DNA from: Methylomonas methanica
GTDB lineage: Bacteria > Pseudomonadota > Gammaproteobacteria > Methylococcales > Methylomonadaceae
Length of the DNA stretch: 64,000 nt
NCBI GenBank assembly: GCA_001644045.1
Contig: LUUF01000099.1
Coordinates: forward strand, 1-64,000
Reading direction: 5' to 3'
Below are positions 1-19,246 of this stretch, one piece after another. Both the position numbers and the translations under genes were made by a program. The first letter of the stretch is position 1; each line of letters starts with the position of its first letter. The notes under the pieces are model-generated. The model did no database searches. It was given only the letters and a program-made list of their open reading frames with translations, and was not told where the DNA came from.

Positions 1-941
1 TTTCCAAGATTTTCAGCGTCGGTAAAAAAACCGTGCCAGAGCGTGGCGCCGTTTTCAATCCGCTCCGGCGTGGCATGACAACTTATCCATCGGCAACCGT
101 GCTCGGGATGCTGCACGCGAAACTCCGCCCGAAACACCTCGCATTGCTGCGCCGATTTAACGATCAGATGTTTGATGGTCGGCAAATCGTCACTATGCGT
201 AACGGCGAATAGCGGTTCGGCATCGTCCAGCACTTGTTCCGGCTCTACCCCCATCAAATCGTAGAGCTTTCTGCTGGCATAAGGTAAACAGGAGCTGCCG
301 TCGGCGCGCAGCAAATATTGATAAATCACGCCCGGCACATTCGCGGTGATCTTTTGCAGATAATCGGCGTTAGCGCGCGCTTGCTCTTCATTGCTTTTCA
401 AACTCTTGAGCATTTGCCAACTCAAAAAAGCAATGATGCTATTGAACGAGAAAAGATTCCAAACAACATTCGCCCAAGGCAACGGATTGTAGGCATACAC
501 TTGGTAATCGACATCGAAGCTGACCCAATGCTGAGTAGCGGCAAAACCCAGCAAAGCCATGCTCAGAATATTGATTGCTATCAGCCAGCCGGCAATCGGA
601 AAATCGAACAAGAACACGCACAATAAGGTATTCAGCGGTGCGAACAATTTACTGCTGGCAATCAGGCCAAACTGGTAAAGTCCGCTGTAGGTGACTATCC
701 AAAATATAACCAGCAGCGATATTGCCCGGGCGACATAGGAAATGCGTTTGCGCCCCAACCATAGCAACCATAAAGTGATTATTGCCAACATCTGAACGGC
801 CATGACCGGCTTCCAGCCCATGAACATAGCTCGCGACAGAGATATTCCGACACTTGGAATACCTACCACACCGGAAACCAGCAGGGTGGCATTTAATAAC
901 TGGTTGCGTAAATCGGCTATATCTTCGTACTTGGTTTTCAT
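1..941 (-). CDS. Membrane-bound PAS-domain sensor protein (5' part only)
   Basis: An open frame starts at the ATG at 941 and runs off the left edge, about 313 codons. The first ~180 residues hold five or six hydrophobic segments with short loops, which looks like an integral-membrane sensory module. A PAS-type domain follows from about residue 195 (ITANVPGVIYQYLLR, then a PAS core ending in WISCHATPERI). Membrane-plus-PAS N-termini of this kind usually precede a histidine kinase or a GGDEF/EAL output domain. The output lies outside the window, so the signalling type cannot be assigned. No convincing ribosome binding site was seen at the start. Confidence 0.7.
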   Translation of the reverse strand, partial: MKTKYEDIADLRNQLLNATLLVSGVVGIPSVGISLSRAMFMGWKPVMAVQMLAIITLWLLWLGRKRISYVARAISLLVIFWIVTYSGLYQFGLIASSKLFAPLNTLLCVFLFDFPIAGWLIAINILSMALLGFAATQHWVSFDVDYQVYAYNPLPWANVVWNLFSFNSIIAFLSWQMLKSLKSNEEQARANADYLQKITANVPGVIYQYLLRADGSSCLPYASRKLYDLMGVEPEQVLDDAEPLFAVTHSDDLPTIKHLIVKSAQQCEVFRAEFRVQHPEHGCRWISCHATPERIENGATLWHGFFTDAENLG

Positions 942-1535
942 AAATTGGGTTCTATTGGCTGACTATCCCCCGCACGAGTAGCGATAAAATCTTGCTTGCC
1001 AATGGATTCGTACATACTCACCACCTCAATCATCTTCGTCGTTTTAAGAAGTTTAGCAGTTACTAAAACCGAGCGAAGCCAAAGCTAAGCAACAAGCCGA
1101 CGCGTGGGTAAGCGAAGATTGGCAGACTGGAATAGAAGCGCCGATGCCTTGCGAAGAGAAAAGACGAGGGCTGGCAACCGGAAAAGATTAGGCTGAGCTA
1201 TAAAGCCCCGCGACAAAACCCAGGCTGTCGAGTTAAGAAATTTTTGTGGATATGGGCTATCGAGAGATAACAAACCGGCTCGCGTCGAAGCCTGAGACTT
1301 GCGTAATATCGGCAAATTTAGCCAAGGCCACAGAGTCCACGTCCTGATGAACCATGCACCCAAAAAATAACGCCGTGGATTGAAAAGTGTTCCGACAAGG
1401 GATTGCGATAGACACGCGCGTCGTCTACCGAAAAAGCTACCGCCGTACTCCTCGGCTTGCCCCATATTCGAGAGCAAGCCGAGGATAAGCCGTCAGGCCG
1501 GACTCGCTGCCTAGCCTGATAAAAACTTACGGGGC
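942..1535. other. Intergenic stretch without a convincing gene
   Basis: About 590 bases separate the PAS sensor from the SulP gene. The longest open frame (1085-1477, minus, 130 codons) has a composition rich in Arg, Leu, Trp and Ser, no recognisable domain and no ribosome binding site, so it is not called as a gene. A perfect inverted repeat lies at 1450-1484. No tRNA, tmRNA, RNase P or other standard RNA was recognised. Confidence 0.5.
1450..1484. repeat. 11-bp perfect inverted repeat
   Basis: CCTCGGCTTGC at 1450-1460 is repeated as GCAAGCCGAGG at 1474-1484 around a 13-base spacer. No T-run follows on either strand, so it does not look like a standard intrinsic terminator. It lies about 50 bases past the stop codon of the SulP gene and could act as an mRNA 3'-end hairpin. 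Confidence 0.5.
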
Positions 1536-3095
1536 CTAATGCCCGGAAGACGAGGTTGGGCAGGAAACGCTAAAACCCTGAATTTCAACCGCGACATTGC
1601 GATCCGCCGCCGCCTGCAAGAAATCCGCGATGGTTTCCATAATATCCAAATCGATGAATTGAGCTTTGGTGCCGTCGATCAATAATTCGACGTCATTAGG
1701 TACTTCATCCAGATATTTACGCAGCAAAGCCTTGTTCAAAAACGAGACGTCCTTATGCAGACGCAACAAGTAATGCGGGCCGTGCTGGGTCAATGTGATC
1801 GCGGCATGGAAATTGGCTTTCAACACGAAGAAGAACCCGCAGGCCATACCAATTGCAATACCTTGCAGTAAATCGGTAAGCAGAATCGCCACAACGGTAA
1901 TCACGAACGGCGCAAACTGGTTCCAGCCCTTGCGGTAAAACTCCACGAACAATGCCGGTTTGGCCAGTTTAAAGCCGGTTTGCAGCAAAATCGCCGCCAA
2001 ACAGGCCAGCGGGATCATGTTCAAATATTTGGCAAAAAACAGCACGCTGACCATCAGTAAAACACCGTGGAAGAAACAAGCTATTCTGGTCTGGCCGCCG
2101 GCATTGATATTGGCCGAACTACGCACGATCACCGCGGTAATCGGCAACCCGCCCATCAAGCCGCTGATCAGATTGCCCAGACCTTGAGCTTTGAGCTCGC
2201 GGTTGGTCGGCGCCACCCGTTTATGCGGATCCAGTTTATCGACCGCTTCCAGACTGAGCAGCGTTTCCAGGCTGGCGATGATCGCGATGGTGCCGGCAAT
2301 GCTGTAGACCTTGGGATTGCTAAAGTAACTAAAATCCGGCAGCCGCAACTGGTTGATAAAATTAGCGGTGCTGCCCAATTCCGGTAGCGAGACCAGGTGT
2401 TTCTCGCCGATCACCAGTTCCGGGGCGAAATACATCGCCAATGAGTTGAAACTGACTCCCCAAATTACCGCCAATAGCGGCCCCGGAATCAGCTTTAACG
2501 CTTTGAATTGTTTGATGAAGCCGCTATCCCAAACAATCAGAATCAACAGGGCCACGATACTGACCAAGGTAACGCCGGGGGTAATCCCCTCCAACGCCTC
2601 GGAAAATTCGAAGAAGCTCGATTCGGCGGTTTCCTGCATGTAGCTTTCGTCGCCTTCAAAACTGGTATCGAAACCGGTGGCATGCGGGGTTTGTTTGATG
2701 ATCAAAATTACGCCGATAGCCGCCAGCATGCCTTTAATCACCGATGCCGGAAAAAATGCGCCTATCACCCCGGCTTTTAAAAAACCCAGCATAATTTGCA
2801 AACCGCCGGCCATCACCACGCTTAGCAAAAAGCCGCCAAAACCGCCCAGGGTTTCGATGGCGTCAAACACGATTACCGTCAGACCGGCGGCCGGTCCGGA
2901 AACGCTGAGTTGGGAGCCGCTGGCCCAGGACACCAGAATACCGCCAACCAAGCCGGCGATAATGCCTGAAAACAGCGGCGCGCCCGATGCCAACGCCACC
3001 CCCAAACACAAGGGCAAAGCCACCAGGAACACCACGATGCTGGCCGGCAAGTCCTGGTGCAGATGTTTCAAATAATAATTCAGTTGAGATGTCAT
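1536..3095 (-). CDS. SulP-family anion (probable bicarbonate) transporter
   Basis: Integral inner-membrane carrier of the SulP (SLC26-like) family, about 519 residues. The N-terminus (DLPASIVVFLVALPLCLGVA) and the segment GLISGLMGGLPITAVIVRSS are typical. Around residues 290-320 a family-like segment (ASLETLLSLEAVDKLDPHKR) is followed by GNLISGLMGG. A short STAS-like tail (LLIDGTKAQFIDLDIMETI) ends the protein. SulP proteins carry sulfate, bicarbonate or other anions. The adjacent upstream carbonic anhydrase and DAB genes point to bicarbonate, which is inference. An in-frame TTG at 3116 would add seven residues, but the ATG at 3095 is the more natural start. Neither has a clear Shine-Dalgarno. 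Confidence 0.88.
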   Translation of the reverse strand: MTSQLNYYLKHLHQDLPASIVVFLVALPLCLGVALASGAPLFSGIIAGLVGGILVSWASGSQLSVSGPAAGLTVIVFDAIETLGGFGGFLLSVVMAGGLQIMLGFLKAGVIGAFFPASVIKGMLAAIGVILIIKQTPHATGFDTSFEGDESYMQETAESSFFEFSEALEGITPGVTLVSIVALLILIVWDSGFIKQFKALKLIPGPLLAVIWGVSFNSLAMYFAPELVIGEKHLVSLPELGSTANFINQLRLPDFSYFSNPKVYSIAGTIAIIASLETLLSLEAVDKLDPHKRVAPTNRELKAQGLGNLISGLMGGLPITAVIVRSSANINAGGQTRIACFFHGVLLMVSVLFFAKYLNMIPLACLAAILLQTGFKLAKPALFVEFYRKGWNQFAPFVITVVAILLTDLLQGIAIGMACGFFFVLKANFHAAITLTQHGPHYLLRLHKDVSFLNKALLRKYLDEVPNDVELLIDGTKAQFIDLDIMETIADFLQAAADRNVAVEIQGFSVSCPTSSSGH

Positions 3096-3127
3096 TGGTT
3101 TACTCAGTAATGTCAAAAGCTCGAAGA

Positions 3128-3760
3128 CTAATCGGCGTAACGGTAAATCGGATTGATTTGGGTGTTGTGGTCGAGTTTGATCAATTCGCTAATCAAGCCG
3201 TCGTTCAGACCGTATACCCAGCCGTGCAGCGTAGGTTTATGACCATGTTTCCAAGCTGACTGAATAATCGAGGTATGAGCCAGGCGATAAACTTGTTCGA
3301 TGATGTTCAGCTCAATCAAGCGATCGGTCTTTTTCGCCGGATCTATCGACTCCAGTTCCTCCTGGTGTAAGCGGTATACGTCTTTAATATGCAGCAACCA
3401 TTTGTTGGCGATCACCAAATCGGCTTTTTGCGGCTGGAGGGCGGCCTTCACGCCGCCGCAGCCGTAATGGCCGCAAACGATGACATGCTTAACTTTTAAG
3501 ACCGAAATAGCGTATTGCACGACGCTCAGGCAATTGAAATCGGTAGTGATGACCTGATTGGCAATATTGCGGTGCACAAAAATTTCACCGGGCTTGGCGT
3601 TGACGACTGTCTCCGCCGGCACCCGGCTATCCGCACAGCCAATCCACAAAAAATCCGGCTTTTGTTCCTTGGCCAGCTGTACAAAAAACTCCGGGTCTTT
3701 TCTGCTGACCTCTTCCGACCAGGCTTTGTTTTCAAGCAGTAATTTCGTAGGTGTAATCAT
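3128..3760 (-). CDS. can: Beta-class carbonic anhydrase
   Basis: Cytosolic zinc enzyme interconverting CO2 and bicarbonate, 210 residues. The zinc ligand motifs are visible: CADSR near residue 40 and HYGCGG (HxxC) near residue 100, together with the usual GEIFVHRNIAN segment. The ATG at 3760 is chosen because AAGGACG lies just upstream and the family starts close to this point; an in-frame extension to 3823 has no ribosome binding site. It lies 12-32 bases before the SulP gene and 148 bases after the NuoM-like gene, all on the same strand. This fits a role in supplying or trapping bicarbonate. Confidence 0.93.
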   Translation of the reverse strand: MITPTKLLLENKAWSEEVSRKDPEFFVQLAKEQKPDFLWIGCADSRVPAETVVNAKPGEIFVHRNIANQVITTDFNCLSVVQYAISVLKVKHVIVCGHYGCGGVKAALQPQKADLVIANKWLLHIKDVYRLHQEELESIDPAKKTDRLIELNIIEQVYRLAHTSIIQSAWKHGHKPTLHGWVYGLNDGLISELIKLDHNTQINPIYRYAD

Positions 3761-3908
3761 AATTGGCGTCCTTATTTTTTTGTAACTACGTGTTCTAGAG
3801 CGTATCCGGAACGGATTGTTCAAAAGAGCATAGCTTTATGCGGCAATACTATATCGAATCGAAACTATATGGCAATCGCTTTACGGCCAGAATCAGACTA
3901 AATCCAAT

Positions 3909-5483
3909 TTATATCGAACCATCTGTCTCTGCCGGCATACCTAAACTCGTGGGGCGATGTGCGTGTCTCGCTTCGGCGATCAATTGCGTGGTGGCATTTA
4001 ATCGCTGCGACCATGCCTGCAAACTGGTTTCCTGCCAAGACAACAGCCACTGCGGATACAGGCCTATCGCCAATACCAGCAGCGCCGGCACGACCAGCAG
4101 TGCCAACTCGCGTGGGCGCAGATCCTGGGCTCTGGCGACGCTGTCATGTACAACCGGACCAAAGAATGCCCTTCTGACAAAACCCAGCATATACGCCGCA
4201 CCCAATACCGCGCCGAACAAAGCCACCATCGCCAGCGCCGGATAGGCTTGCAATGCGCCGAGAATCATCAGCAATTCCGCCGGAAAGCCATTGGTACCGG
4301 GCACGCCGATGCTGGACAATGCGAATACAAAAAATAAGACGGTCAGGCGCGGCATGGGCTTGGCTAAGCCGCCGAGATGAACCAGATCGGTACTACCCAA
4401 GCGTTGCTGGATCATACCGGCGATTAGCATCAGGCTGCCGGCGACGATGCCGAAATTCAGCAACTGCAGGACCGCGCCCTGCAAACCTTGCAGATTAAAC
4501 GCGGCGATACCGACAATCACCAGGCCGACATGACTAATGCTGGAATAAGCCAACAAGCGGCGCAGATTGGTTTGCTGCAACGCGATCAAGGCGCCGTAAA
4601 TCAGCGTCACCGCACCGAGTATCGCCAACAGCCAGCGATGCTCCAGCGCAGCTTGCGGCGCCAGCGGTATCGCAAAACGGATAATGCCGTAAACACCCAG
4701 TTTCAAGCCGACCAACAAGGCGCTAAGAAAAGTCGGCGCCTCCATCGCTGTCGTCGGCAACCAAGTGTGAAACGGCAGCAGCGGCGCTTTTACCGCAAAC
4801 CCCAAAACCAGCAATAAAAAAATCAGACCCTGTGCTGCCTCAGGTATCGGCGTATTCAGTAACACCGGCAGGCTAAAAGCCAAATCCTGCGGAATCGCTC
4901 CGCCGGTATATTCGGCGTGATTAATCGCCAACAAAATAATCCCGAACAGCAAGGGCACACCGCCGAACAACATATACAAGATATATTTCATCGCCGCGTG
5001 CCGCCGTTCGGCACCGATACCCCATAAGCCGATCAAAAAGAAAATCGGCGGCAAGGTCAGCTCCCAAAACAAGAAGAACAAGGCTAAATCCAACGCGGTA
5101 AACACACCGATAGTCACGCTTTCCAGCGCCAGCATCAACGCTAGTTGAAAGCGGTTTAACTGCCGCACGCTGTTCCAGCTTGCCAGCAAGGCCATCAGAG
5201 TCAGCAAGGCGGTGATCGGCAAAAACAGGATCGAGATGCCGTCCACGCCGAGTTGATAGTGAATATTAAGTCCGGGTATCCAGGGATAGTCTTCCAGTAA
5301 CTGAAAATCGCCGCGCGCTGTATCGAAAACCCAAGCCGCGGCAACGGTAAACAGCAATTCCACAACGGCAACCAACACTGCGCCGCGCTTGGCTAATCGG
5401 CTATCCCGGATAAATGCCAGCGACAACGCCCCCAATAGCGGCCAGGCCAGACACAAGGACAGTAAAGGAAAACTATCAGTCAT
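3909..5483 (-). CDS. NuoM/MrpD-like antiporter-type membrane subunit (copy 1 of 3)
   Basis: Proton-conducting membrane protein of the complex I NuoM / Mrp antiporter superfamily, 524 residues, about 14 hydrophobic segments. All four charged residues typical of the proton path are present: Glu141 in FWELTLPP, Lys232 in AVKAPLLPFH, Lys261 in VGLKLGVYG and Glu403 in GTNGFPAELL. It overlaps the preceding NuoM-like gene by 8 bases (ATGACTGA), which suggests translational coupling. No other complex I genes (nuoA-K) are nearby, so it is not part of a standard respiratory NADH dehydrogenase. Its place after DabA and DabB suggests it belongs to the DIC machinery. Confidence 0.88.
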   Translation of the reverse strand: MTDSFPLLSLCLAWPLLGALSLAFIRDSRLAKRGAVLVAVVELLFTVAAAWVFDTARGDFQLLEDYPWIPGLNIHYQLGVDGISILFLPITALLTLMALLASWNSVRQLNRFQLALMLALESVTIGVFTALDLALFFLFWELTLPPIFFLIGLWGIGAERRHAAMKYILYMLFGGVPLLFGIILLAINHAEYTGGAIPQDLAFSLPVLLNTPIPEAAQGLIFLLLVLGFAVKAPLLPFHTWLPTTAMEAPTFLSALLVGLKLGVYGIIRFAIPLAPQAALEHRWLLAILGAVTLIYGALIALQQTNLRRLLAYSSISHVGLVIVGIAAFNLQGLQGAVLQLLNFGIVAGSLMLIAGMIQQRLGSTDLVHLGGLAKPMPRLTVLFFVFALSSIGVPGTNGFPAELLMILGALQAYPALAMVALFGAVLGAAYMLGFVRRAFFGPVVHDSVARAQDLRPRELALLVVPALLVLAIGLYPQWLLSWQETSLQAWSQRLNATTQLIAEARHAHRPTSLGMPAETDGSI

Positions 5484-7017
5484 GGTGCGGGCCGTTCATG
5501 TGGTGGCTGTGATGTTCCGGATAATGTTCGCCGATTTCCTTGGCTTCCTGATCGATAAATTTCAACCAGGGCGTGGTGTAAAAACCGGTGCCTATCAGCA
5601 AGCCGCAAATGGTCACGGCGATAATCCGCTCCTTTAATACCGGATGATGAATGCTGCCGTAGGGCTGCACGACGCGTTGGGGATGGGCGATGAACAGCCG
5701 TTGAAAAGCCCAGAGCAGAAAAGCCGCCCCCAGCACGTTACCCAGCAAAATCGCAATCGCAATATACCAACCGTGTTCCTCGATGGTGCCCTCGATCAGC
5801 AAATGCGCCGCATCGAAACCCGGCGTACCAGGCATGACCATGGTGCTGAGCGCGGAAATCAAAAACAGCAAGGCGATAGTCGAATTGGTCTCGAACAAAC
5901 CGCCCAGGCGCGGCAAAAACGAAGTGCGGGTGCGTTCGTAAATCAAACCGATACTGAACAACATGCCGGCCGTGGCCAGACCATACGCTATCGACAACAG
6001 AATGCTGCCTTCCAGCGCAAAATCGTTGAAGGAGAACACGCCTATCGCCAGCATACCGGTATGACTGATCACCGCAAACGCCAGCAGCCGGCGCATATTG
6101 ATCTGCATCAGCGCCAGCAAGGCGCCGTAAAAGATGCCGATCAAGCCCAGATCGACCACAAAATGCACCCATTGCTCGGCCGCGCCCGGTACCAGCGGCA
6201 AAATGAAACGGATCAAGGCGTAAATGCCCAGCTTCAGGCCGGTCAGAAAAATTGCCGCGCTGGCGGCGGTGCCGTGCTCGGCCAACAAGGGTAACCAGGC
6301 ATGAAACGGAAACAGCGGCATGCGGATCGCAAAGCCGAAAAACAGCAAGATAAAAATCAGGGTTTCGTTGGGAATTGCCAGGTTGTGATGCTTCAAGGTC
6401 AACCAATCGAAGCTTAACTCCAAGCCGTTTTGCGCCAGTCCAAAGCTCAGCAAAATAAAGCCGGCCAGACTCATCGCCAAACCGGACAGCCAGTATTGCA
6501 ACACTGATTTAACCACCTGGTTGCGCTGTTTACCGGTACCGGCAAACACCGTCAATAGCACCACAGGCACCAGTTCCAGCAAACACCAGAACCAGAATTG
6601 CAGCGTGTTTAGCGCGGCAAACGCGCCGATTAAAATGCCTTGATAGGCCAGCAGGCAGGCGATGAACAGGCGGTCGTTACGATGCCGGGTGATCAGGGTA
6701 TAGACCAGTGCCAGCAAACCTAAAATCGCCGTCAGCGGAATAAACAGAATATTGGTACCGTCCACACCAACCCGATAGTTCATCCCCAGCAATCGAAAAT
6801 GTTCGGCAAGATGAATGCCGGGCGATTCCGAATCGAATATCAGCAATAGATAAATACTCAGCAACACGTTCAGCAACGCGCCGCCAAAGGCCAGCCGCAC
6901 GCTATAAATCGGCTTGGCGAACACCACCGCCAACATGGCCAGCAGCGGCACCAGCGTCAACACAGTCAAAAGCGGCACAGCGGCCACTGCCTGCCAGAAA
7001 ACAATAGGGGTATTCAT
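5476..7017 (-). CDS. Divergent NuoM-like membrane subunit (copy 2) with altered proton-path residues
   Basis: 513 residues, NuoM-like topology, but the usual charged residues are changed. The conserved Lys of the first half-channel is Arg232 (AIRMPLFPFH). The TM12 Glu is missing, replaced by GFDAAHLL around 401-407. The TM5 Glu is displaced, appearing as Glu148 in CLLELVPV rather than in an FWE motif. Lys262 (GLKLGIYA) is kept. The C-terminus is His-rich (EHYPEHHSHHMNGPHHD), a possible metal-binding tail. The start overlaps the DabB stop as ATGA at 7014-7017. It may be a structural or regulatory subunit rather than an active proton channel, which is inference. Confidence 0.85.
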   Translation of the reverse strand: MNTPIVFWQAVAAVPLLTVLTLVPLLAMLAVVFAKPIYSVRLAFGGALLNVLLSIYLLLIFDSESPGIHLAEHFRLLGMNYRVGVDGTNILFIPLTAILGLLALVYTLITRHRNDRLFIACLLAYQGILIGAFAALNTLQFWFWCLLELVPVVLLTVFAGTGKQRNQVVKSVLQYWLSGLAMSLAGFILLSFGLAQNGLELSFDWLTLKHHNLAIPNETLIFILLFFGFAIRMPLFPFHAWLPLLAEHGTAASAAIFLTGLKLGIYALIRFILPLVPGAAEQWVHFVVDLGLIGIFYGALLALMQINMRRLLAFAVISHTGMLAIGVFSFNDFALEGSILLSIAYGLATAGMLFSIGLIYERTRTSFLPRLGGLFETNSTIALLFLISALSTMVMPGTPGFDAAHLLIEGTIEEHGWYIAIAILLGNVLGAAFLLWAFQRLFIAHPQRVVQPYGSIHHPVLKERIIAVTICGLLIGTGFYTTPWLKFIDQEAKEIGEHYPEHHSHHMNGPHHD

Positions 7018-8585
7018 CGGTATCCCAGCGCTACCATCAAGGTGATCAACACAAACAACGCCAGATAGCGCGGCTGTAACAATAATTGCTCGAAACGGTT
7101 GGCGGCATGCCCCAAACGCCGACCGAGCCGAATCGAATCGCGGCCGATGCCGCGCAGAATAAAGTGATATTCAAACCAGTTCAGCAGGGCTGCGGTCCAT
7201 TGCGCCAGTTTGCCGGCCAAGCCACTGCCTTGCGCAAAACTATCTTCCTGGCTATCCAGATTGGCGCCCATTTTCTGTTCTTCCCACTGCGCCAAGGACG
7301 ACACTGCCCTGATAGCCGGGGCCGGCGCGCCCAGGGCCGTATCGACGATATGTTCGTCGATATAGCGCACATCCTTGGCCAGCCTCAACACCGGTTTGAC
7401 CAACAGCCAGTCCATGGCCGGTTCCAGCCAGCCGCGCTGTAAGGACGCGATAAACGCCCAGCGGCAATTCGCCAGCGCCGGCGCCACCGGCCGGATAGGT
7501 TGTCCATGAGTGTTGTGCAAGATGGAGGGTGCGGTTAGCAATAAATAGCAACGCACCACCGCATGCGCGCAAAGATGCCAGGCCGCTAAAGTCCAAAAGC
7601 CCAGCCCGCATTCGACAAACATCAAACCCAGTTGCGCGGACGTGGCAAAAATCTGCGAACTTTTAATATCGGTCTGACTCAGGCCCACCCAATGGCTGTA
7701 AATCGCTGTCAATGCGCCAATCACGGTCAATAGCAGCATGGCCAACGGCGCCTGCACAAACAAGGGCTGCAATTGAATGATTAAAAACACGCCGGCATGA
7801 ATCATCGCCCCGCCGTAGAAAATGGCGCTGGACGGCGTCGGCCCTTCCATCGCCCGCGCCAGCCAGGGTGTGAACGGAATCTGCGCGGATTTGGCAAATG
7901 CCGCCACGGCAAAACTCAAGGCCAGCAAAGTGGCGTCGCCCGCTTCCAGATCGGCCGCGCTGTTGTTGATCGTTTGCCAGTCGGCATTTTCCAGCCAGGC
8001 CAAGGCCAGGCCAATGGCCAGAATAAAGCCGCCGTCGCCGATGCGATTGGTCACAAATACCCGCGTGGCGTTATGCGCGGCAATGGGGCGGTCGTAGGCA
8101 TAGGCAATCAGCCAGTAAGAACAAACCCCGGCGATCTCCCAGGCAATAAAGGTAAACACCGCGTTGCCGGACAACACCAACAGCAGCATCGCCGCCGCAA
8201 ATAGATTCAGGATGAAAAAGAAGCGGTAGAAACCAGTCTCGCGGTGCAGGTAATTCACCGAGAAACGTATCGCCACCAGCAGCAGCAAGGAAAACAAACT
8301 CGCCAAAATCAGATTGAAGCCGCCGGTGGCTAATGTGTAGTCTATGGTCAGCGTGCCGCTGCGCAGCCAGGTACCGTACGACACCGAGTCGGGAAGTTGG
8401 CCGGATAAATCGGCTATCAATAAACCTAGGGCCGTCAGCACCGACAGGCCGATAGCCGTTAAGGCCAGCCGGGCCGTGGTTTTCTCGCCGGCCTCGCCGT
8501 CGACAATTCGGCAAAAATGCAGGCCGCCGATCAGCAGCGCGGCCAATAACGGAAACAAGGGAATAAGGGTTACGTAGGCAGCCAT
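7014..8585 (-). CDS. dabB: DabB-type NuoL-like subunit of the DIC accumulation complex
   Basis: 523-residue membrane protein of the NuoL/DabB family, the partner of DabA in energy-coupled inorganic carbon uptake. Key motifs are FIAWEIAGVCSYWLI (TM5 Glu), FAKSAQIPFTPWL (Lys) and AMEGPTPSSAIF. The C-terminal third (VRYIDEHIVD and a final hydrophobic helix) resembles the lateral-helix tail of NuoL, while the usual NuoL TM11-14 core looks shortened. The ATG at 8585 is chosen because GGGAG precedes it and it sits 2 bases after the DabA stop; a longer frame to 8660 lies inside dabA. The end overlaps the next gene as ATGA. Confidence 0.85.
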   Translation of the reverse strand: MAAYVTLIPLFPLLAALLIGGLHFCRIVDGEAGEKTTARLALTAIGLSVLTALGLLIADLSGQLPDSVSYGTWLRSGTLTIDYTLATGGFNLILASLFSLLLLVAIRFSVNYLHRETGFYRFFFILNLFAAAMLLLVLSGNAVFTFIAWEIAGVCSYWLIAYAYDRPIAAHNATRVFVTNRIGDGGFILAIGLALAWLENADWQTINNSAADLEAGDATLLALSFAVAAFAKSAQIPFTPWLARAMEGPTPSSAIFYGGAMIHAGVFLIIQLQPLFVQAPLAMLLLTVIGALTAIYSHWVGLSQTDIKSSQIFATSAQLGLMFVECGLGFWTLAAWHLCAHAVVRCYLLLTAPSILHNTHGQPIRPVAPALANCRWAFIASLQRGWLEPAMDWLLVKPVLRLAKDVRYIDEHIVDTALGAPAPAIRAVSSLAQWEEQKMGANLDSQEDSFAQGSGLAGKLAQWTAALLNWFEYHFILRGIGRDSIRLGRRLGHAANRFEQLLLQPRYLALFVLITLMVALGYR

Positions 8586-8587
8586 AC

Positions 8588-11500
8588 TCACACAACTCCC
8601 ATTAAATCGGGCTGTTTGATCAGCATGGGGGCGACCGGTTGGGTTTCGTCGCGATAGCAATCCGGTGAGTCATCCCGTAGTGGTAGCTCCATGTCACCGG
8701 GCTGCCAGCGCATAAAGCCGACGCCGCGCTGAAACACAAATATCTCGCCGCTGTCAGGATCTTTAGCGCTGAGATGCACCCAGCCGCCGCCTATCAGTTC
8801 TCGCAGGCTTTCCTGCCGGCCATAAATTTGCTCCAACACCGAGGTTTTGGCTTCGACGATGATTTGCAGGCGCATCGCTTCGTGAATCTCAATCATTTGT
8901 CGGGGCAAACCGGTGCGCAAGTCGCTGCCGGCACCTTCCATCACCGCACAAAAGCCGGTCAGATTGTGCGGCACTTTCGAACCGCAACCGAGCCGCTCGT
9001 TATTCACGGTGGAAAAATAATATTCCAGATTGATACCGGCGCCGACCGGGCCAACCGCCAACAAGATGCCTTCCAGCACGGTGCCTTCCGGGTCTTGGCT
9101 GGGATCGTAGGAAATCAAAAACAAGCGGCGGTCGAAAAACGCGCCTTGCGTCAACGAGCGTCTGCCGACCAATGCGGCAGCGTTGGTGGCATGCCCCAAT
9201 TCTGGGCGGGCTTGCGAAAAGTCGGCGGCGCGCTGCAGAAAATGCCGCAAAGCCTGCGGCGGCTCGGGTCGGCGCGGCGCAGAAGCCAGGCGCCGGCAGC
9301 GCTCGTGCGCCGACATGCGCTGTGCGTGTTGCATCTGCTCGATAAATTTATGCAAAGCGGCTTGGCATGCCCCAGGTACAGCAGCGCTGTCGTACCAGGT
9401 AATGTCTTCGTCGCAGGTGTTGTGCTCGGCGCCGATAAACCAGGTATCGTCTGGGATGACGATACCGCGCTCGGCCAGCAACTGCCGGACCTCGGGCCGA
9501 TTCGCCATCGCCGCGAACAACCGGGCATTAGGTCCGCCATGCCGGCCGCTGCACGCTCCGCAATCGTAAGCTGATAAATGCGGATTGTTTTGGCTCATCG
9601 AGCCATGGCCCATTAGCACCACCAATTCGGCAAAGCCGTAAGTCAGACCGGTATTTCGCAAAAACCCGGCGATCCGGTCGGCTTGTTCCTGGTCGGTAAA
9701 GCCCAGGCGCGGCTGTTGTGGCGTGGCCGGCGTCGCGGCGTCGGCAGCGGTAAAGTGCAATTGCGAGGCCACGTCGGGAGCGATCCCTTTCACCGCCGCA
9801 ACCAACAGCTGATGTTGAGTTTTGGGGATAAAGCTTTTCGCCAGCAAACCGAGCAAGGTAAACGGTGCCACGGCATTGATCACCGGATACGCCAGCAGTG
9901 CATCGCGGCGCAAGCCGTGATGGAGCAAATCGGCAAGCCGTTGCTTCAGATTACGGCCTTGCCGGTGCCGGGCCAAGGCATTTTCCTGGCCGGGTTGACT
10001 GCATTCTTGAACATTATGTGCTGGCACCACGACTACCGGACACAGAGCCGTCAGCTTGGTATCGTCCAGGCCCTGATAATTCATCGGCACGCCGAAAAAT
10101 CCGGCGGCCCCTAGAGTTTCGATAGCCGGATTCAGTTCTTCCAAGTGGCGGCGGATGCCTTCCTCGCGGTCGTCCATGCAAAACACGATTTGCGCCTCGG
10201 GCCGTCTGTCACGTTGCGCCCAACGCCCTCTATCATGATTGGCATACAATGCCTGCAGTAGCGCTTGCTGATAGTGGCGTTCGTAAGCGTTCAGCCAGAT
10301 AGTGCTGCGATCCGCTTCGCTGAAAGCATCGATAATGCCCAAGCATTCCAACAGTTGCGCCTGTTCCAAATGCTGTATCGCACCGGAGGTCAAGCCGAGC
10401 AATTGGCAAACGCGAAACAGCCGCCAACCCTGGTTATAAATACTCAGAGTCGAGGACGAGGGTGCCAGCGGGCTGAGTTGCCAGGTCCAAATCCGTTCGG
10501 CTAAGGTCTGCCAGGCCTGCTTATCTCGCGTCGAGTCGTTCAGTAAAGCCTGCGCCGCAAGCGCCAGATACTCCGGCAATTGGCCGTGGAATAAAGTATG
10601 CCTGACCGAAAACTCCGCCAGGTTTTTCGAAAAATAGCCGCGGAGTTTGTCCAGTTGCGCCTCGCAATGCCATTGCCGCCGGCACAGCTGTTCCGCGTAC
10701 AGCCGATCCAGGGTTAAACGTATTGCCAGATAGTCCTCCAACAGGGGCTTGGTTACGTCATCCGCTTGATAATCCGGATGGGTTTGTCGCCAGTTGATCA
10801 AGCCCGACCAACCCGGCAGTTCCAAGGCCAGTCTTTGCAAATACCCTGCCCAGCGTTGCTCCGGGACAGTCAGCGCCGCCAACTGTTGCGCGATGGCGTC
10901 GACGGCGTCCGCCGGCAGTTCCGCCGAGACGGCTTGCCAATCATGCAATTCCTGAAAAACCGGCTGCGCATCGTAGACCAAGCTTTCGCGCCAGGCTTGA
11001 TACAGCCCCAGTTCTTGCCGCTTGGGTAAACGCCAGGCAGCTAGGCCTTCGTCCAGCAATGATGCGCACAAGCGAATCAATTGCGGCCGCACCGTGTCGA
11101 GAATATCCTTGCCAGTCAACGCCGACAGCAAGCCGCGCAAGGTCAAACTGTCGCCGATCCGCGCAAACAGGCTTTCCAGACTCTCCATGCCGGCTTCGCG
11201 CATCTGTTGTTCCGCACCGGCATCTGCTGTATCCGGCAGCCATTGCCGGATTTGCTCGGCGGACAGATCGAGCAAATCTTCCGGATGCAAATCAAGCATC
11301 TGCAAGCCAAGCTTGGCAAGCAAGACATTCCACAATTCGCGAGCCGTTTTGCCGCCGGCGGACGGCCGGTCCAGCACGCCAAGCTCCCGCACTTGCCAAT
11401 CGAATTGCGTGGGTGTCAGCGCTGACAAATCATTCAGCAAAGCCAGCCGGTAAAGCTTTTGCCTGGTAATGCTCTTGCCATTGACAGTGCAAACTGGGGT

Positions 11501-11794
11501 TTCCAGCTCTGCGCCAAATTGCTGTGCCAACGCTGCATTAATATCGTCATCGTCGATTCGGCCTTGCGCATAAAACTCACGGAACTGTTCGGCCGGCAGA
11601 TAGCAGCTGATACCGGTTAACTGAGTAAATTCCGCAAGTGCCTGTTCGAACGGCAAATGCTGAAAGCCATGCAAGGTATTGTGATGCACGAAATCGTGAA
11701 TCGGCGCCTGTCCCGGCAGGACATGATCCAGGTGGTGGATCGCGTCTATGATGATGTCGCGCGGAGATGCGCTAATTGATAAGGAATCGTGCAT
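8588..11794 (-). CDS. dabA: DabA (DUF2309/UPF0753), vectorial carbonic-anhydrase-like subunit
   Basis: Large protein of about 1068 residues of the DUF2309 family. Known DabA proteins resemble beta-carbonic anhydrases and, with DabB, convert CO2 to bicarbonate using membrane energy. The catalytic zinc-site pattern is complete. Numbered from the TTG at 11800, Cys541 and Asp543 lie in CMDDREEG, and His732 and Cys747 in GHGSMSQNNPHLSAYDC; the His-Cys spacing of 15 matches the characterised protein. The ATG at 11794 is preferred over that TTG. The protein is longer than many DabA homologues because of an extended N-terminal half. It starts just after the repeat-derived frame at 11797-12156. Confidence 0.93.
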   Translation of the reverse strand: MHDSLSISASPRDIIIDAIHHLDHVLPGQAPIHDFVHHNTLHGFQHLPFEQALAEFTQLTGISCYLPAEQFREFYAQGRIDDDDINAALAQQFGAELETPVCTVNGKSITRQKLYRLALLNDLSALTPTQFDWQVRELGVLDRPSAGGKTARELWNVLLAKLGLQMLDLHPEDLLDLSAEQIRQWLPDTADAGAEQQMREAGMESLESLFARIGDSLTLRGLLSALTGKDILDTVRPQLIRLCASLLDEGLAAWRLPKRQELGLYQAWRESLVYDAQPVFQELHDWQAVSAELPADAVDAIAQQLAALTVPEQRWAGYLQRLALELPGWSGLINWRQTHPDYQADDVTKPLLEDYLAIRLTLDRLYAEQLCRRQWHCEAQLDKLRGYFSKNLAEFSVRHTLFHGQLPEYLALAAQALLNDSTRDKQAWQTLAERIWTWQLSPLAPSSSTLSIYNQGWRLFRVCQLLGLTSGAIQHLEQAQLLECLGIIDAFSEADRSTIWLNAYERHYQQALLQALYANHDRGRWAQRDRRPEAQIVFCMDDREEGIRRHLEELNPAIETLGAAGFFGVPMNYQGLDDTKLTALCPVVVVPAHNVQECSQPGQENALARHRQGRNLKQRLADLLHHGLRRDALLAYPVINAVAPFTLLGLLAKSFIPKTQHQLLVAAVKGIAPDVASQLHFTAADAATPATPQQPRLGFTDQEQADRIAGFLRNTGLTYGFAELVVLMGHGSMSQNNPHLSAYDCGACSGRHGGPNARLFAAMANRPEVRQLLAERGIVIPDDTWFIGAEHNTCDEDITWYDSAAVPGACQAALHKFIEQMQHAQRMSAHERCRRLASAPRRPEPPQALRHFLQRAADFSQARPELGHATNAAALVGRRSLTQGAFFDRRLFLISYDPSQDPEGTVLEGILLAVGPVGAGINLEYYFSTVNNERLGCGSKVPHNLTGFCAVMEGAGSDLRTGLPRQMIEIHEAMRLQIIVEAKTSVLEQIYGRQESLRELIGGGWVHLSAKDPDSGEIFVFQRGVGFMRWQPGDMELPLRDDSPDCYRDETQPVAPMLIKQPDLMGVV

Positions 11795-11796
11795 GA

Positions 11797-12156
11797 TCAA
11801 ATCACTTCCATATTCATTGACACGCCAAACGATGTGCTTCGCCCCTTAAAATTGGGAAGGGTGTTTATCCCGTATGCCGCGCCGAGCACCGGAACTTTTG
11901 GCAGGATCAGCCCGAAGGGGCGATGCAAGGATGCATCGCGTTGCCGAAGGGGCAGGAAGCTCCTTTCGGCAACCCCTGTCAAAAGCGAGGAGCACAGGAA
12001 ATAAGCGGCATTCGGGCCGCCTTTTCTTTGGCTACTTTCTTTTGGCGGAGCAAAAGAAAGTAGCTCGGCAGTCGGTCCGAGAACCGACTTCAAAAAACCG
12101 TCGCGATAGCGACACATCATTATCCAAGCGACCGCACGTACAGCAAAAAGCAACAT
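11797..12156 (-). CDS. Repeat-derived open frame bridging nuoM-like gene and dabA (doubtful protein)
   Basis: A 119-codon frame starts at an ATG overlapping the NuoM-like stop (TGATG, 12154-12158) behind a strong Shine-Dalgarno (GGGGAGAGG in the end of that gene). It ends in a TGA 2 bases before the dabA ATG. It runs across a hairpin-rich repeat, and its sequence (for example FAPPKESSQRKGGPNAAY) looks like translated repeat DNA rather than a folded protein. It may only keep ribosomes moving between two operon genes. I recall similar spurious frames from methanotroph genomes but cannot verify that here. Confidence 0.3.
   Translation of the reverse strand: MLLFAVRAVAWIMMCRYRDGFLKSVLGPTAELLSFAPPKESSQRKGGPNAAYFLCSSLLTGVAERSFLPLRQRDASLHRPFGLILPKVPVLGAAYGINTLPNFKGRSTSFGVSMNMEVI
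11880..12110. repeat. Hairpin-rich intergenic repeat element inside the DIC cluster
   Basis: About 230 bases hold a chain of stem-loops. These are GCGATGC/GCATCGC at 11920-11939 (containing TGCAAGGATGCA), TTGCCGAA(A)GG/CCTTTCGGCAA at 11941-11972, a 14-bp perfect stem at 12031-12064 and AGTCGGT/ACCGACT at 12070-12089. This density of dyads is typical of dispersed chromosomal repeats. It shares the core TGCAAGGATGCA with the element between pyrB and pyrC'. Exact ends are not visible. Confidence 0.6.
12031..12064. terminator. 14-bp perfect stem-loop (possible attenuator or terminator)
   Basis: GCTACTTTCTTTTG at 12031-12044 pairs perfectly with CAAAAGAAAGTAGC at 12051-12064 around a 6-base loop (GCGGAG). 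On the minus (operon) strand the second arm ends in TTTTGGCTACTTTC-type sequence without a clean U-tract, so partial termination or mRNA stabilisation between the first NuoM-like gene and dabA is as likely as full termination. Confidence 0.4.
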
Positions 12157-13670
12157 CACGGCAACCTCTCCCCCATGACCGCCAACATCTTCCCCACCGT
12201 CGCCGTAGACAACTCAATCAAAGGCGCCGGCAACAAACCGAACAACACAATCCCTCCGACCAACACCCCGGAGGCCATCAGTTCCAGTGATTTTAAATCG
12301 GCAATGTCGCGCATCTGCGGCTTAACCGGCCCGGTGAACAGCAAACCGATGGTACGCATCGCGTAGGCGGCGCTGATCAAGATGCTGAGACTAAAAAACA
12401 CCATCAAACCGCCCCATTGCTGAAAGCCGCCAATCAGCGTGTGCAGTTCGGCGATAAAGCCCACCGAGCCCGGCAAACCCATGGCTGCTAGCAAGGTCAA
12501 GGTTGTCAAAGTGGCAAAGCGCGGCATGACCTGCACCAGCGAACTGTAATCCTGGATGTTGCGGGTATGCGTGCGCTCGTAAAGCAGGCCCACCAGCAGA
12601 AACAACGCGCCGGCGATCAGGCCGTGCGCAGTCATTTGTAGTATCGCGCCGGTGAAGCCGGTTTGATTCAATGCGGCGATACCCAATAACACTACGCCCA
12701 TATGACTGAGGGAAGAGTAAGCCACCATGGCCTTCAAATCCCGCTGCCGCCAGGCCAGTAAGCCGCCGTAGATCATGCCGAACAGGGCCAGAAACACCAG
12801 CAGCGGTTGAATCAATTTGGCGGCGACCGGCAGCATCACTACGCACCGCAGCAAGCCGTAGGCGCCCATTTTCAGCAGAATGCCGGACAACAAGATACTG
12901 ATGGGGCTCGGCGCTTCAACGTGCGCCAGCGGCAGCCAGCCATGCAAGGGAAAAATCGGCATTTTCACGCCAAAACCGATTAAAAAACCCAGCAGCACCA
13001 GGACTTGCTCGACCACCGGCATGTTTTGCGCGGCCTGGCCCATGGATGCCATCAAGGAACCTTGGTTTTCCAGATCGTACTGACTGATCGCCAGCAGACT
13101 CAGCAGCATGAACACCGAACCGCCCATCGTGTACAACACAAAATTCAGGCTGGCGGCATGCCGGCGTTTGCCGCCCCAGCGGTCGATCAGGAAAAACAAC
13201 GGGATCAAGGTCACTTCCCAGAAGATGTAAAACAGCGCCCAGTCCTGCGCCATGAACACGCCGAGCATGCCGAATTCCAACAACAGAATGGAGATGTGAT
13301 AGCCCTTGATGCTATCGGACAGGGAGAAGGAGGCTAGCAGGGAAATACAAGTTAATAGGGTCGCCAGCACCAGCATCGGCATCGACAGGCCGTCTACACC
13401 CAGCGCGTAAGCGCTGCCAAGCTTGGGGTTGAGGGGATAGAACTCGCTAAATTGCAGTGCGGTGTCGTTGGCATCGAACTGGACCAATAGCAAACAGGCC
13501 AGCAACAAAGCCGCCAAACTGAATAGATTAGCTACAATTCTGATCAATCGGCTGTTCCGGCCGGAGACCAGTACCAGCAATATTGCCCCCAGCGCCGGGG
13601 TCCATAACAGCGCGCTTAGCATCACCATTGTTATCGTCAAAGTCCAATACAGCAAACATTCTAACGACAT
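12156..13670 (-). CDS. NuoM/MrpD-like antiporter-type membrane subunit (copy 3, first gene of the cluster)
   Basis: About 504 residues of NuoM-like membrane protein with an intact proton path: Glu in FYIFWEVTLIPLFFL, Lys in FGVKMPIFPLHGWLP, Lys in SGILLKMGAYGLLR and Glu in LPGSVGFIAELH. It is the most NuoM-like of the three copies. The start is uncertain: the ATG at 13670 is used, an upstream TTG (13688) and an internal ATG (13628) are also open, and none has a good ribosome binding site. It is transcribed first in the DIC cluster and is separated from dabA by a repeat element. Confidence 0.85.
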   Translation of the reverse strand: MSLECLLYWTLTITMVMLSALLWTPALGAILLVLVSGRNSRLIRIVANLFSLAALLLACLLLVQFDANDTALQFSEFYPLNPKLGSAYALGVDGLSMPMLVLATLLTCISLLASFSLSDSIKGYHISILLLEFGMLGVFMAQDWALFYIFWEVTLIPLFFLIDRWGGKRRHAASLNFVLYTMGGSVFMLLSLLAISQYDLENQGSLMASMGQAAQNMPVVEQVLVLLGFLIGFGVKMPIFPLHGWLPLAHVEAPSPISILLSGILLKMGAYGLLRCVVMLPVAAKLIQPLLVFLALFGMIYGGLLAWRQRDLKAMVAYSSLSHMGVVLLGIAALNQTGFTGAILQMTAHGLIAGALFLLVGLLYERTHTRNIQDYSSLVQVMPRFATLTTLTLLAAMGLPGSVGFIAELHTLIGGFQQWGGLMVFFSLSILISAAYAMRTIGLLFTGPVKPQMRDIADLKSLELMASGVLVGGIVLFGLLPAPLIELSTATVGKMLAVMGERLP

Positions 13671-13829
13671 TTGGTTGAAAAAAGCCAATCCAACAAAAAA
13701 TCGGTTGAAATAAACCGCGCCGTATCCAACGGCTCACAACTTAGGCGACGGAACCGATTTCGCAAACCCACGGGCTTCGTGTACCCTACGCCAACCAAAA
13801 AGCAACGGGATTTAGGGGGAATCCTTACC

Positions 13830-14582
13830 ATGCGCAACAATGTCACACTATTCAACAGCGGCAATCACCGCTACGTTTTACTAAACGAAAGCGAGCCGGG
13901 CGAAGAAGACGGCATTCCTTCCAACCAGTATCTGATCGTGCATAACGGCAAGGGCACTTTAATGGACCCGGGTGGTTTCGGCGTGATGCCGCAAGTGCTA
14001 AACGAAATGCTGCAATACCTGAATCCCGACGACATCGAAGCCATTGCGCTATCTCATCAGGACCCGGATATTGTCGGAGGCTTGAGCAGTTGGATGAAGC
14101 TGACGCCGGCGCGCATATACGCCTCCCGCATTTGGCTGCGTTTCCTGCCCCATTACGGCATTTCCGGCATGCGCCGTTTTGTCGGCGTGGCCGATCAGGG
14201 CGAAACGGTAACCTTGCACTCCGGCCTGCAATTGCAATTTGTCCCGGCGCATTTCCTGCACTCGCCCGGCCAGATCAATGTTTACGACCCGATTTCGAAA
14301 ATTCTGTTTTCCGGCGATGTCGGTGCTTCGATGGTACCGAACAATAATTGCGATATCTTTGTTGACGATTTCCAAAAACACTTGCCGTTCGCCGAAGGCT
14401 TTCATAAACGCTACATGGCCTCCAACCGCGCCTTGCGCTATTGGGTGCAGCAGGTGCGCAAGCTGGACGTGGAGCTCATCGCTCCGCAGCATGGCCCGGT
14501 CTATCGCGGCCAAGCCAAAATCGATTTTCTAAACTGGTTGTACGATTTGCAGTGCGGCAGCGATTTGCTGGATCTCGAATAA
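13830..14582 (+). CDS. Metallo-beta-lactamase-fold diiron (ODP/FprA-type) oxygen-binding protein
   Basis: 250-residue soluble protein of the oxygen-binding-diiron branch of the metallo-beta-lactamase fold. Likely iron ligands are His76, Asp78 and Asp80 (SHQDPD, replacing the usual HxExD), His141 or His144 (PAHFLHSPGQ), Asp163 (FSGDVG) and His221 (PQHGP). There is no flavodoxin or rubredoxin domain, unlike full FprA enzymes, so a sensor or small-ligand role is more likely than O2 reduction. AGGGGGA precedes the ATG at 13830, which decides the start over an in-frame extension to 13671. The stop is directly followed by the ATG of a GGDEF-EAL gene. Confidence 0.85.
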   Translation: MRNNVTLFNSGNHRYVLLNESEPGEEDGIPSNQYLIVHNGKGTLMDPGGFGVMPQVLNEMLQYLNPDDIEAIALSHQDPDIVGGLSSWMKLTPARIYASRIWLRFLPHYGISGMRRFVGVADQGETVTLHSGLQLQFVPAHFLHSPGQINVYDPISKILFSGDVGASMVPNNNCDIFVDDFQKHLPFAEGFHKRYMASNRALRYWVQQVRKLDVELIAPQHGPVYRGQAKIDFLNWLYDLQCGSDLLDLE

Positions 14583-16733: not shown

Positions 16734-16738
16734 ACGCC

Positions 16739-17203
16739 ATGCAAATACACATGATCGCCGTTGGCAACAAAATGCCGGACTGGGTGCAGCAAGGTTATAA
16801 TGAATACAGCAAACGGCTGCCGCGCGAATGCGAGTTGCTGCTGAAGGAAATCGCCCCGGACAAGCGCCGGGGCGGCGACATTGCCCGGATAACCAAGGAC
16901 GAAGGAGAACGCATGATAGCGGCATTGCCGAGCCGGGCGCACGTGGTGACGCTGGACATACCCGGCAAGCCCTGGACCACGCCGAATCTGGCGCAAGCCT
17001 TGCAACGCTGGCTGGGCAACGGCCAGCCGGTAGCGCTGATGATAGGCGGGCCGGAAGGCCTGTCTCAGCAAGTACGCGACATGGCGCAGGAATCCTGGAG
17101 TTTATCGCCGCTGACTTTCCCGCACCCCTTGGTCCGCGTCATTGTCGCTGAACAAATCTATCGGGCCTGGAGTCTGCTGAACAATCACCCTTACCATCGT
17201 TAA
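16739..17203 (+). CDS. rlmH: 23S rRNA pseudouridine1915 N3-methyltransferase RlmH
   Basis: 154-residue SPOUT methyltransferase that methylates pseudouridine 1915 of 23S rRNA in the assembled ribosome. Family marks are the N-terminus MQIHMIAVGNKMPDWV, the SAM-binding knot segment LMIGGPEGLS near residue 103 and the C-terminal LVRVIVAEQIYRAWS..NNHPYHR. The length matches the family exactly. The ATG at 16739 follows the upstream stop by 5 bases, and maf begins 4 bases after its own stop. Confidence 0.95.
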   Translation: MQIHMIAVGNKMPDWVQQGYNEYSKRLPRECELLLKEIAPDKRRGGDIARITKDEGERMIAALPSRAHVVTLDIPGKPWTTPNLAQALQRWLGNGQPVALMIGGPEGLSQQVRDMAQESWSLSPLTFPHPLVRVIVAEQIYRAWSLLNNHPYHR

Positions 17204-17207
17204 GCGC

Positions 17208-17783
17208 ATGCACCCACAACTGATCCTGGCTTCCGCCTCGCCGCGCCGCAGTGAATTGCTCAAGCAAATCGGCATCCGTCACAGTATCATGGCGGTCGAC
17301 ATCGACGAAACACCGTGGCCGGGCGAAACGCCGGCCGCTTACGTCGAGCGGGTGGCAGCGGAAAAATCCGCGCTCTGTCTGGCGGCAACCGCTACTGATT
17401 TACCGGTGCTGGCAGCGGATACCAGCGTGATTTGCGACGGCCGCATCCTCGGCAAACCCGACGATTTACAGCACGCCATTGAAATGCTCAGTCATTTATC
17501 CGGCCGCAGCCATCAGGTGTATAGCGCGGTATCCTTACGCGGAGAACAACACTGGCAGGCGCTCAGCATTAGCGAAGTACGTTTCAGGCCCTTGAGCCAT
17601 CAGGAGATCGTTGCCTATTGGCAAACCGGGGAACCTCACGACAAGGCCGGTGCCTATGCAATTCAAGGCCTAGCCAGCGTGTTTATCGAATCGATCACCG
17701 GCAGTTTTTCCGGGGTAATGGGCTTGCCGCTATTCGAAACCGCGCAATTATTAAGCCTAGCAGGCATAGACATCATCCAATGA
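17208..17783 (+). CDS. maf: Maf-family nucleotide pyrophosphatase
   Basis: 191-residue Maf protein (YhdE type), a house-cleaning dTTP/UTP pyrophosphatase. The N-terminal signature LILASASPRRSELLKQIG, the AADTSVI motif near residue 70 and the segment GEPHDKAGAYAIQG are all present. The stop overlaps the rng ATG as ATGA at 17780-17783. The maf-rng pairing is common in gammaproteobacteria. Confidence 0.94.
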   Translation: MHPQLILASASPRRSELLKQIGIRHSIMAVDIDETPWPGETPAAYVERVAAEKSALCLAATATDLPVLAADTSVICDGRILGKPDDLQHAIEMLSHLSGRSHQVYSAVSLRGEQHWQALSISEVRFRPLSHQEIVAYWQTGEPHDKAGAYAIQGLASVFIESITGSFSGVMGLPLFETAQLLSLAGIDIIQ

Positions 17784-19237: not shown

Positions 19238-19246
19238 GCGGCTATT

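Follow-up and report, generated by a model that had tools for sequence, protein, structure and literature searches.

The DABs are an under-studied, energy-coupled route of carbon uptake, described as two- and three-subunit complexes of which the two-gene forms suffice elsewhere (PMC13144422). DAB2 of Halothiobacillus neapolitanus (DabA2-DabB2, PDB 9rd0) is described as consuming the proton motive force (PMF) (PMC13144422). In DAB1, with the order DabB-small protein-DabA, the interstitial gene is assigned to the 'mrpA family, PFAM 00361' in one account (PMC7714395) and to a small hypothetical transmembrane protein in another (PMC13144422), and the cyanobacterial NDH-1MS complex has been treated as a vectorial carbonic anhydrase (CA) as well (PMC13144422). 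The window analysed here, i.e. the whole stretch of 64,000 nucleotides from contig LUUF01000099.1 of Methylomonas methanica (assembly GCA_001644045.1), harbours on the minus strand of 1536-13688 a dab cluster that reads in transcription order M1, DabA, DabB, M2b, M2c, beta-carbonic anhydrase and SulP, where M1, M2b and M2c are NuoM-type subunits.

We consider it probable, at roughly 0.6, that M1, DabA, DabB, M2b and M2c constitute one five-subunit, redox-free, PMF-driven vectorial CA of the DAB type, in which the single NuoL-like subunit would have been lengthened to four antiporter-like subunits in a row, resembling the complex I membrane arm minus the redox arm. The parts of this system, their conserved linkage and their residue patterns are established at the level of sequence. 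If the five-subunit reading is true, the system bridges complex I and the simplest DAB, with the same kind of proton subunits and no electron transfer, and the coupling of a row of antiporter-like subunits to distant chemistry becomes testable with a soluble substrate; the locus also points to carbon supply in methanotrophs (methane oxidisers) and nitrifiers (ammonia oxidisers). The abstract of Schmid 2021 reportedly speaks of 'one, two, or three subunits'. No description of a five-subunit M1-DabA-DabB-M2b-M2c DAB was found in the accessible sections of the literature (including PMC13144422, PMC10880623, PMC7714395, PMC8552792 and PMC11423575), a survey that did not cover Desmarais 2019 and Schmid 2021.

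The seven reading frames and the families claimed for them by the first-pass annotation were recovered with Pfam and NCBIfam (PF10070, four PF00361 proteins, PF00484 and PF00916), as follows:

12156..13688, minus strand: M1, NuoM-type antiporter-like subunit, first core gene (TIGR01972, 476 bits; PF00361)
11795..12155, minus strand: M1-dabA spacer of 361 bases with a dispersed palindromic repeat (sequence inspection)
8588..11794, minus strand: DabA, long type, 1068 amino acids, carbonic-anhydrase-like subunit (PF10070, 848 bits)
7014..8585, minus strand: DabB, NuoL-like, 523 amino acids (NuoL family matches; PF00361)
5476..7017, minus strand: M2b, divergent NuoM-type subunit (TIGR01972, 286 bits)
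3909..5483, minus strand: M2c, NuoM-type subunit with proton-path residues largely intact (TIGR01972, 490 bits)
3128..3760 (open reading frame, ORF, to 3823), minus strand: beta-carbonic anhydrase, lineage-specific accessory (NF007756, 266 bits at a cut-off of 251; PF00484)
1536..3116, minus strand: SulP-family anion carrier, lineage-specific accessory (PF00916, 177 bits)

The core genes are tightly packed, and the junctions had been read correctly from the outset: the dabB ATG at 8585 sits 2 bases past the dabA stop codon, M2b overlaps the dabB stop in an ATGA (7014-7017) and M2c overlaps M2b by 8 bases (5476-5483). In relatives, junctions of at most 30 bases were counted for dabA-dabB at 93/106, dabB-M2b at 87/96, M2b-M2c at 89/92 and M1-dabA at 83/113 loci, with the nearest possible start codon picked mechanically, which biases these distances toward small gaps.

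The relatives comprise loci from named genomes and a set of other loci, which share some genomes; as both sets were collected by similarity to DabA, all counts measure co-occurrence with the long five-gene DabA type only. A full-length long DabA match is present in 29 of 37 genus genomes, the host included, and the genus loci together with seven from other families of the order read M1-DabA-DabB-M2b-M2c wherever the contig reaches, with the exception of L050. The named-genome scan took the best 80 loci of a longer list, 52 of which carry all five as separate genes; the families with complete sets are Methylococcaceae, Crenotrichaceae, Nitrosomonadaceae, Gallionellaceae, Sulfuricellaceae and Thiobacillaceae, along with Magnetococcales (five named loci) and unplaced proteobacteria. 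The remaining 28 divide into 22 loci cut by contig ends, four DabB-M2b fusions and two real gaps (L141, L178). Among loci on contigs of sufficient reach, the complete set is found at 40/43 named and 35/38 other loci, the misses being L178, L180 and L185 among the former and L091, L113 and L037 among the latter, with L037 an artefact of ORF boundaries. In a phylum sample, matches to the long five-gene-type DabA at E <= 1e-100 occur in 38 of 398 genomes, 35 of them outside the class.

Across the class, DabA was detected in 83 of 369 genomes, and the neighbourhoods of 40 long and 20 short examples were fetched. Loci L105-L112 show the five-gene order as far as their contigs extend, L091 consists of DabA and a DabB-M2b fusion, and L113 holds DabA alone. 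Twenty-eight of the 40 long-DabA loci have the order DabB-gap-DabA and were labelled DAB1 by gene order; neither these nor the 20 short-DabA loci (DabB-DabA, labelled DAB2) carry a NuoM-type gene in the same run, and at L101 three PF00361-type genes lie on the opposite strand. The survey of DabA neighbourhoods proposed by the first-pass annotation thus recovers the NuoM-like trio with dabA of the long five-gene type across Gammaproteobacteria, Betaproteobacteria and Magnetococcia; the association of the trio with dabA stands for this DabA type, whereas other DabA types do without it.

DabB and M2b are a single protein at five loci (L176, L179, L180 and L185, three of them labelled Competibacteraceae or Contendobacter, and L091). 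The parts also persist where the operon is broken: in G134, M1-DabB-M2b-M2c are contiguous (L215) with DabA on another contig (L113), and in G128 and G258 M1 and M2c lie apart from DabA-DabB/M2b in the same genome.

Proton-path positions were scored against E. coli NuoL, NuoM and NuoN. In M1, all seven tested NuoM positions are kept in 113/113 rows (107 distinct), where Glu158, Lys242, His249, Lys273, His329, His355 and Glu414 correspond to NuoM Glu144, Lys234, His241, Lys265, His322, His348 and Glu407. M2c keeps six of these positions in 91/91 rows (Glu141, Lys232, His239, Lys261, His318, Glu403), the His348 site being Phe in 91/91. M2b is different: glutamate is found in 0/97 rows at the transmembrane helix (TM) 5 site and in 0/97 at the TM12 site, and the TM7 lysine is Arg in 97/97, while the TM8 lysine (Lys262) is retained in 97/97 and its own Asp402 and His405 are conserved at >=95%. 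The residue rows contain a few near-copies, and the distinct sets of 107, 91, 88 and 98 rows agree. M1, M2b, M2c and this DabB each form one clade (SH-aLRT 99-100), with M2b and M2c as sisters (98), in a quick tree with some long branches and E. coli as the sole complex I reference.

DabB itself retains the NuoL TM5 glutamate (Glu150), in 100/101 separate proteins and in 5/5 DabB-M2b fusions. At this site DAB2-type DabB carry Ile, Leu or Val in 19/22 (Glu in 1) and DAB1-type DabB carry His or Tyr in 23/27; in DAB2 the residue is Ile151, restoration of the glutamate halves the growth yield, and in complex I this glutamate is located near the next subunit (PMC13144422). The retention of a residue mostly lost in the DabB of DAB1 and DAB2 fits a DabB placed within a row of subunits.

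A separate role of the NuoM-type proteins is a rival explanation. As M1 and M2c keep the NuoM-type proton-path residues they could act alone, and M1, M2b and M2c might be a proton/cation antiporter whose one tie to an ordinary DabAB pump is co-expression, perhaps to keep charge or cytoplasmic pH in balance while bicarbonate is produced, a view to which the sodium linkage argued for MpsAB would lend itself (PMC13144422). We regard this as unlikely, since the operon places DabA and DabB between M1 and M2b, five loci encode a DabB-M2b fusion, DabB keeps the TM5 glutamate, and none of the small Mrp subunits was detected among the nine window proteins scanned.

DabA and DabB themselves also bear on the proposed five-subunit complex. 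DabA matches PF10070 far above the cut-off of 25 bits and keeps the zinc site, and an adjacent NuoL-like PF00361 protein is present, as expected of a DAB. The zinc residues had been given as Cys541, Asp543, His732 and Cys747, which is correct if numbered from a TTG start; from the ATG at 11794 they are Cys539, Asp541, His730 and Cys745 and align with Cys351, Asp353, His524 and Cys539 of the solved DabA2 (PDB 9rd0_A). Among 123 DabA of the long five-gene type (118 distinct), the two cysteines and the histidine are present in 123/123 and the aspartate in 122/123. The fold, the DabA finger and the missing DabB helices are predictions. The AlphaFold2 model of DabA (predicted local distance difference test, pLDDT, 82.6; predicted template modelling score, pTM, 0.84) contains a finger hairpin at 604-655, with helices 604-629 and 632-655, as in DAB2; the protein is some 200 amino acids longer than its DAB2 counterpart. 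A Foldseek search with this model gave 0 matches at E <= 0.001, and among the 50 best matches listed (PDB to 8 April 2026) beta-CA entries reached a probability of only 0.28-0.35 and 9rd0 was absent.

In the finger, Glu444 of DAB2 aligns with Asn640 of the window DabA. Glutamate occupies this site in 0/123 of the long five-gene type (39 have Asp) versus 28/28 DAB1-type and 20/21 DAB2-type DabA, an alignment result in a variable helix that may be shifted by a few positions; an acidic residue anywhere within 636-651 is found in just 43/123. Replacement of Glu444 by Ala or Gln abolishes the activity of DAB2 (PMC13144422). Without the finger glutamate, the DAB2 proton path is not transferable to the present system, and the outer half-channel must differ from that of DAB2.

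DabB shares with its DAB2 counterpart a NuoL-like character with Lys, Asp, Arg and His conduit residues, and appears to be shortened. NuoL family matches are limited to ORF residues ~28-390, with the PF00361 profile covered over 2-227 of 294, and the AlphaFold2 model shows TM1-11 at mostly high confidence (confident helices to residue 358), followed by a low-confidence arm and one C-terminal helix. TM12-15 are absent from the model, in contrast to the 15 TM helices of DAB2, and hydropathy agrees, the region past ~390 being of low confidence. In Foldseek, the matches listed for the DabB model are NuoL-type chains, E. coli complex I NuoL first, at a TM score of ~0.6. To the C-terminus of NdhF the C-terminal arm shows only a faint similarity (<=3.4 bits); an apparent retention of NuoL Asp400 (Asp or Glu in 106/106 aligned rows) was dropped because this stretch is weakly NdhF-like and the model has no TM12, which makes the alignment unreliable here.

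Whether DabA and DabB alone do the work, while the M proteins serve in assembly, in regulation or in raising the affinity, is to be judged on these features. The sufficiency of two-gene DABs elsewhere (PMC13144422) and a NuoM-type gene at 0/20 fetched short-DabA class loci speak for it, but a DabB that appears to lack TM12-15 and a DabA without the finger glutamate do not make a self-contained DAB2 equivalent, and M1 and M2c retain their proton-path residues without exception save for one M2c site, which renders this explanation distinctly unlikely.

The five-subunit reading also bears comparison with the larger relatives. The locus shares with the membrane arm of complex I (NuoL, NuoM, NuoN) NuoL/NuoM-type subunits and the same proton-path residues, while no redox subunits lie beside the cluster. 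In the host genome (5.02 Mb, 99.98% complete), PF00361 has 5 matches, namely the 4 in the cluster and 1 DabB beside a short DabA, and PF00346 (complex I 49-kDa subunit) has 0 matches in a search confined to this redox subunit, for which 11/14 control genomes were positive. On these matches the trio does not look as if it belonged to another complex here, and the idea that the NuoM-like genes are remnants of a complex I was rejected on the same counts. NDH-1MS, with the subunits NdhF3, NdhD3 and CupA, is alike in coupling CO2 hydration to antiporter-like subunits and differs in being driven by ferredoxin; DabB scores 160 bits against NdhF3 (TIGR01960) at a cut-off of 588.7. DAB1 has a long DabA too, and is set apart by gene order, by the lack of NuoM-type genes in the run at 28 loci, by a DabB in a separate clade and by His or Tyr at most DabB TM5 sites. 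With Mrp cation/proton antiporters the locus has PF00361 subunits in common and differs in that a scan confined to the nine window proteins detected none of the small Mrp subunits. The first-pass annotation had proposed a larger Mrp/complex I-like module, of which the complex I-like part is supported by the recurring order, the five DabB-M2b fusions and the persistence of the parts in the three searched broken-operon genomes, while a strict Mrp identity and the membership of CA and SulP in the unit are not.

Elsewhere, DabA does occur with an Mrp/Mbh-like set: at L076 (4547-16478), three PF00361 subunits and genes resembling MbhD/E, MnhB and NuoK lie downstream of a SulP-DabA pair. At L050 (4281-12775), DabA-DabB precede two genes of the NuoM type; these fall with E. 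coli NuoM in the tree, outside M1, M2b and M2c, and the locus is possibly an independent multi-subunit DAB.

We infer the following physical arrangement, direction of working, stoichiometry and subunit order for the five proteins. DabA would bind CO2 at a buried zinc and insert its helical finger into DabB at the place taken in NuoL by TM12-13, an arrangement known from DAB2, and protons moving down the PMF via M1, M2c and DabB would trigger one-way hydration of CO2, with several protons spent per CO2. M1 and M2c would be the working channels and M2b a modified coupling piece which, at a guess from its missing TM5 glutamate, might terminate the row. The bicarbonate may supply ordinary carboxylases in Methylomonas, where a search of the host genome returned no match to the RuBisCO large subunit, and in nitrifiers presumably RuBisCO too. 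It is a tentative suggestion, more doubtful than not, that a number of proton channels act together on each hydration of CO2: M1 and M2c, with their residues intact, would work through a re-wired M2b on DabA and the shortened NuoL-like subunit, protons would leave by a route that differs from the DAB2 exit, and each CO2 would cost more than one H+. Such a machine would offer an independent test case for the passing of energy along a row of antiporter-like subunits.

Several observations weigh against a five-subunit complex. DAB2 functions without the extra subunits, and the finger glutamate essential there is missing from this DabA. Eight of the 37 genus genomes have no full-length long DabA match, with fragments in three (G008, G010, G016); L104 has other genes directly after DabA, L178 reads M1-DabA and then unrelated genes, the M2c frame of L141 is shortened, and the fusion loci L176 and L185 are without M1 or M2c at the locus, the rest of these genomes not having been searched for the missing gene. 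The correlation of the subunit distance matrices (0.88-0.95), which counts in favour of the complex, partly reflects common ancestry and linkage. A co-encoded cytosolic CA, finally, would tend to reverse the accumulation of bicarbonate, and the presence of CA and SulP beside a bicarbonate accumulator is puzzling.

These two genes are in the main an addition of the Methylomonas lineage, and the conserved unit is M1-DabA-DabB-M2b-M2c. Both CA and SulP lie downstream at 24/25 fetched genus loci with enough sequence, the window excluded, and only L060 deviates. Beyond the genus, the two genes were both seen at L049, and a downstream SulP at L153 and L174. On this neighbourhood comparison CA and SulP were rejected as core members. 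The SulP gene stays under the cut-off of all three NCBIfam SulP-type models that it matches, BicA (NF050096) reaching 111 of 880 bits. An ion-exporting or pH-controlling mode, in which methane-derived CO2 is hydrated, HCO3- exits via SulP, and CA and the complex balance CO2, HCO3- and protons, would suit a host without a RuBisCO match yet with two DABs, CA and SulP, as well as the CA-SulP pairs of M. capsulatus, where an operon of this kind is described and HCO3- import or export has been proposed as the role of the pairs (PMC11423575), but it is highly improbable, as electrogenic proton export by CO2 hydration would by a rough estimate be feasible only if internal HCO3- were very low, DAB2 is regarded as a consumer of the PMF (PMC13144422), and CA and SulP are both downstream at only 2/80 named loci, which belong to the window's lineage in a set where many loci end early.

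The host genome encodes two DabA, the long one described here and, on contig C18 (G000, locus L073, 7763-12231), a short one, which is accompanied by a DabB of 632 amino acids. The C-terminal part of the latter weakly resembles the end of a NuoM-type subunit, and in the G014 relative this part scores as a further PF00361 region, at 22.5 bits. Among the DAB2-type systems compared, this second DAB is the sole one with a residue other than Glu at the DabA finger site (Gln) and the sole one with the TM5 glutamate in DabB, and its DabB branches adjacent to the five-gene-type DabB. Judging from the alignments, loss of the finger glutamate and retention of the TM5 glutamate go together in this system, which may be related to the five-gene system as a compact and partly fused version. 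G017 contains two five-gene sets (L045, L067), one of them closely preceded by a short DabA, and in one genus member the DabA match is split into two overlapping frames (G024:C2:1634979-1637353).

As for the regulatory and flanking sequence, the start codon of M1 is uncertain (TTG at 13688 or an internal ATG), and the probable CA start is the ATG at 3760, 148 bases past M2c. The repeat in the M1-dabA spacer is palindromic (window 12003-12080), and its 24-base motif at 12022-12045 has 25 genome copies at <=1 mismatch versus 0 for a control with reversed pattern. Scans yielded 4 promoter sites versus 9.5 in shuffles and 39 terminator sites, many within genes, versus 21.4, and an Rfam search of window 1-20000 returned 0 matches. 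Divergently oriented on the plus strand (13671-16733), the cluster is neighboured by a protein of the ODP family with a metallo-beta-lactamase fold and by a GGDEF-EAL protein.

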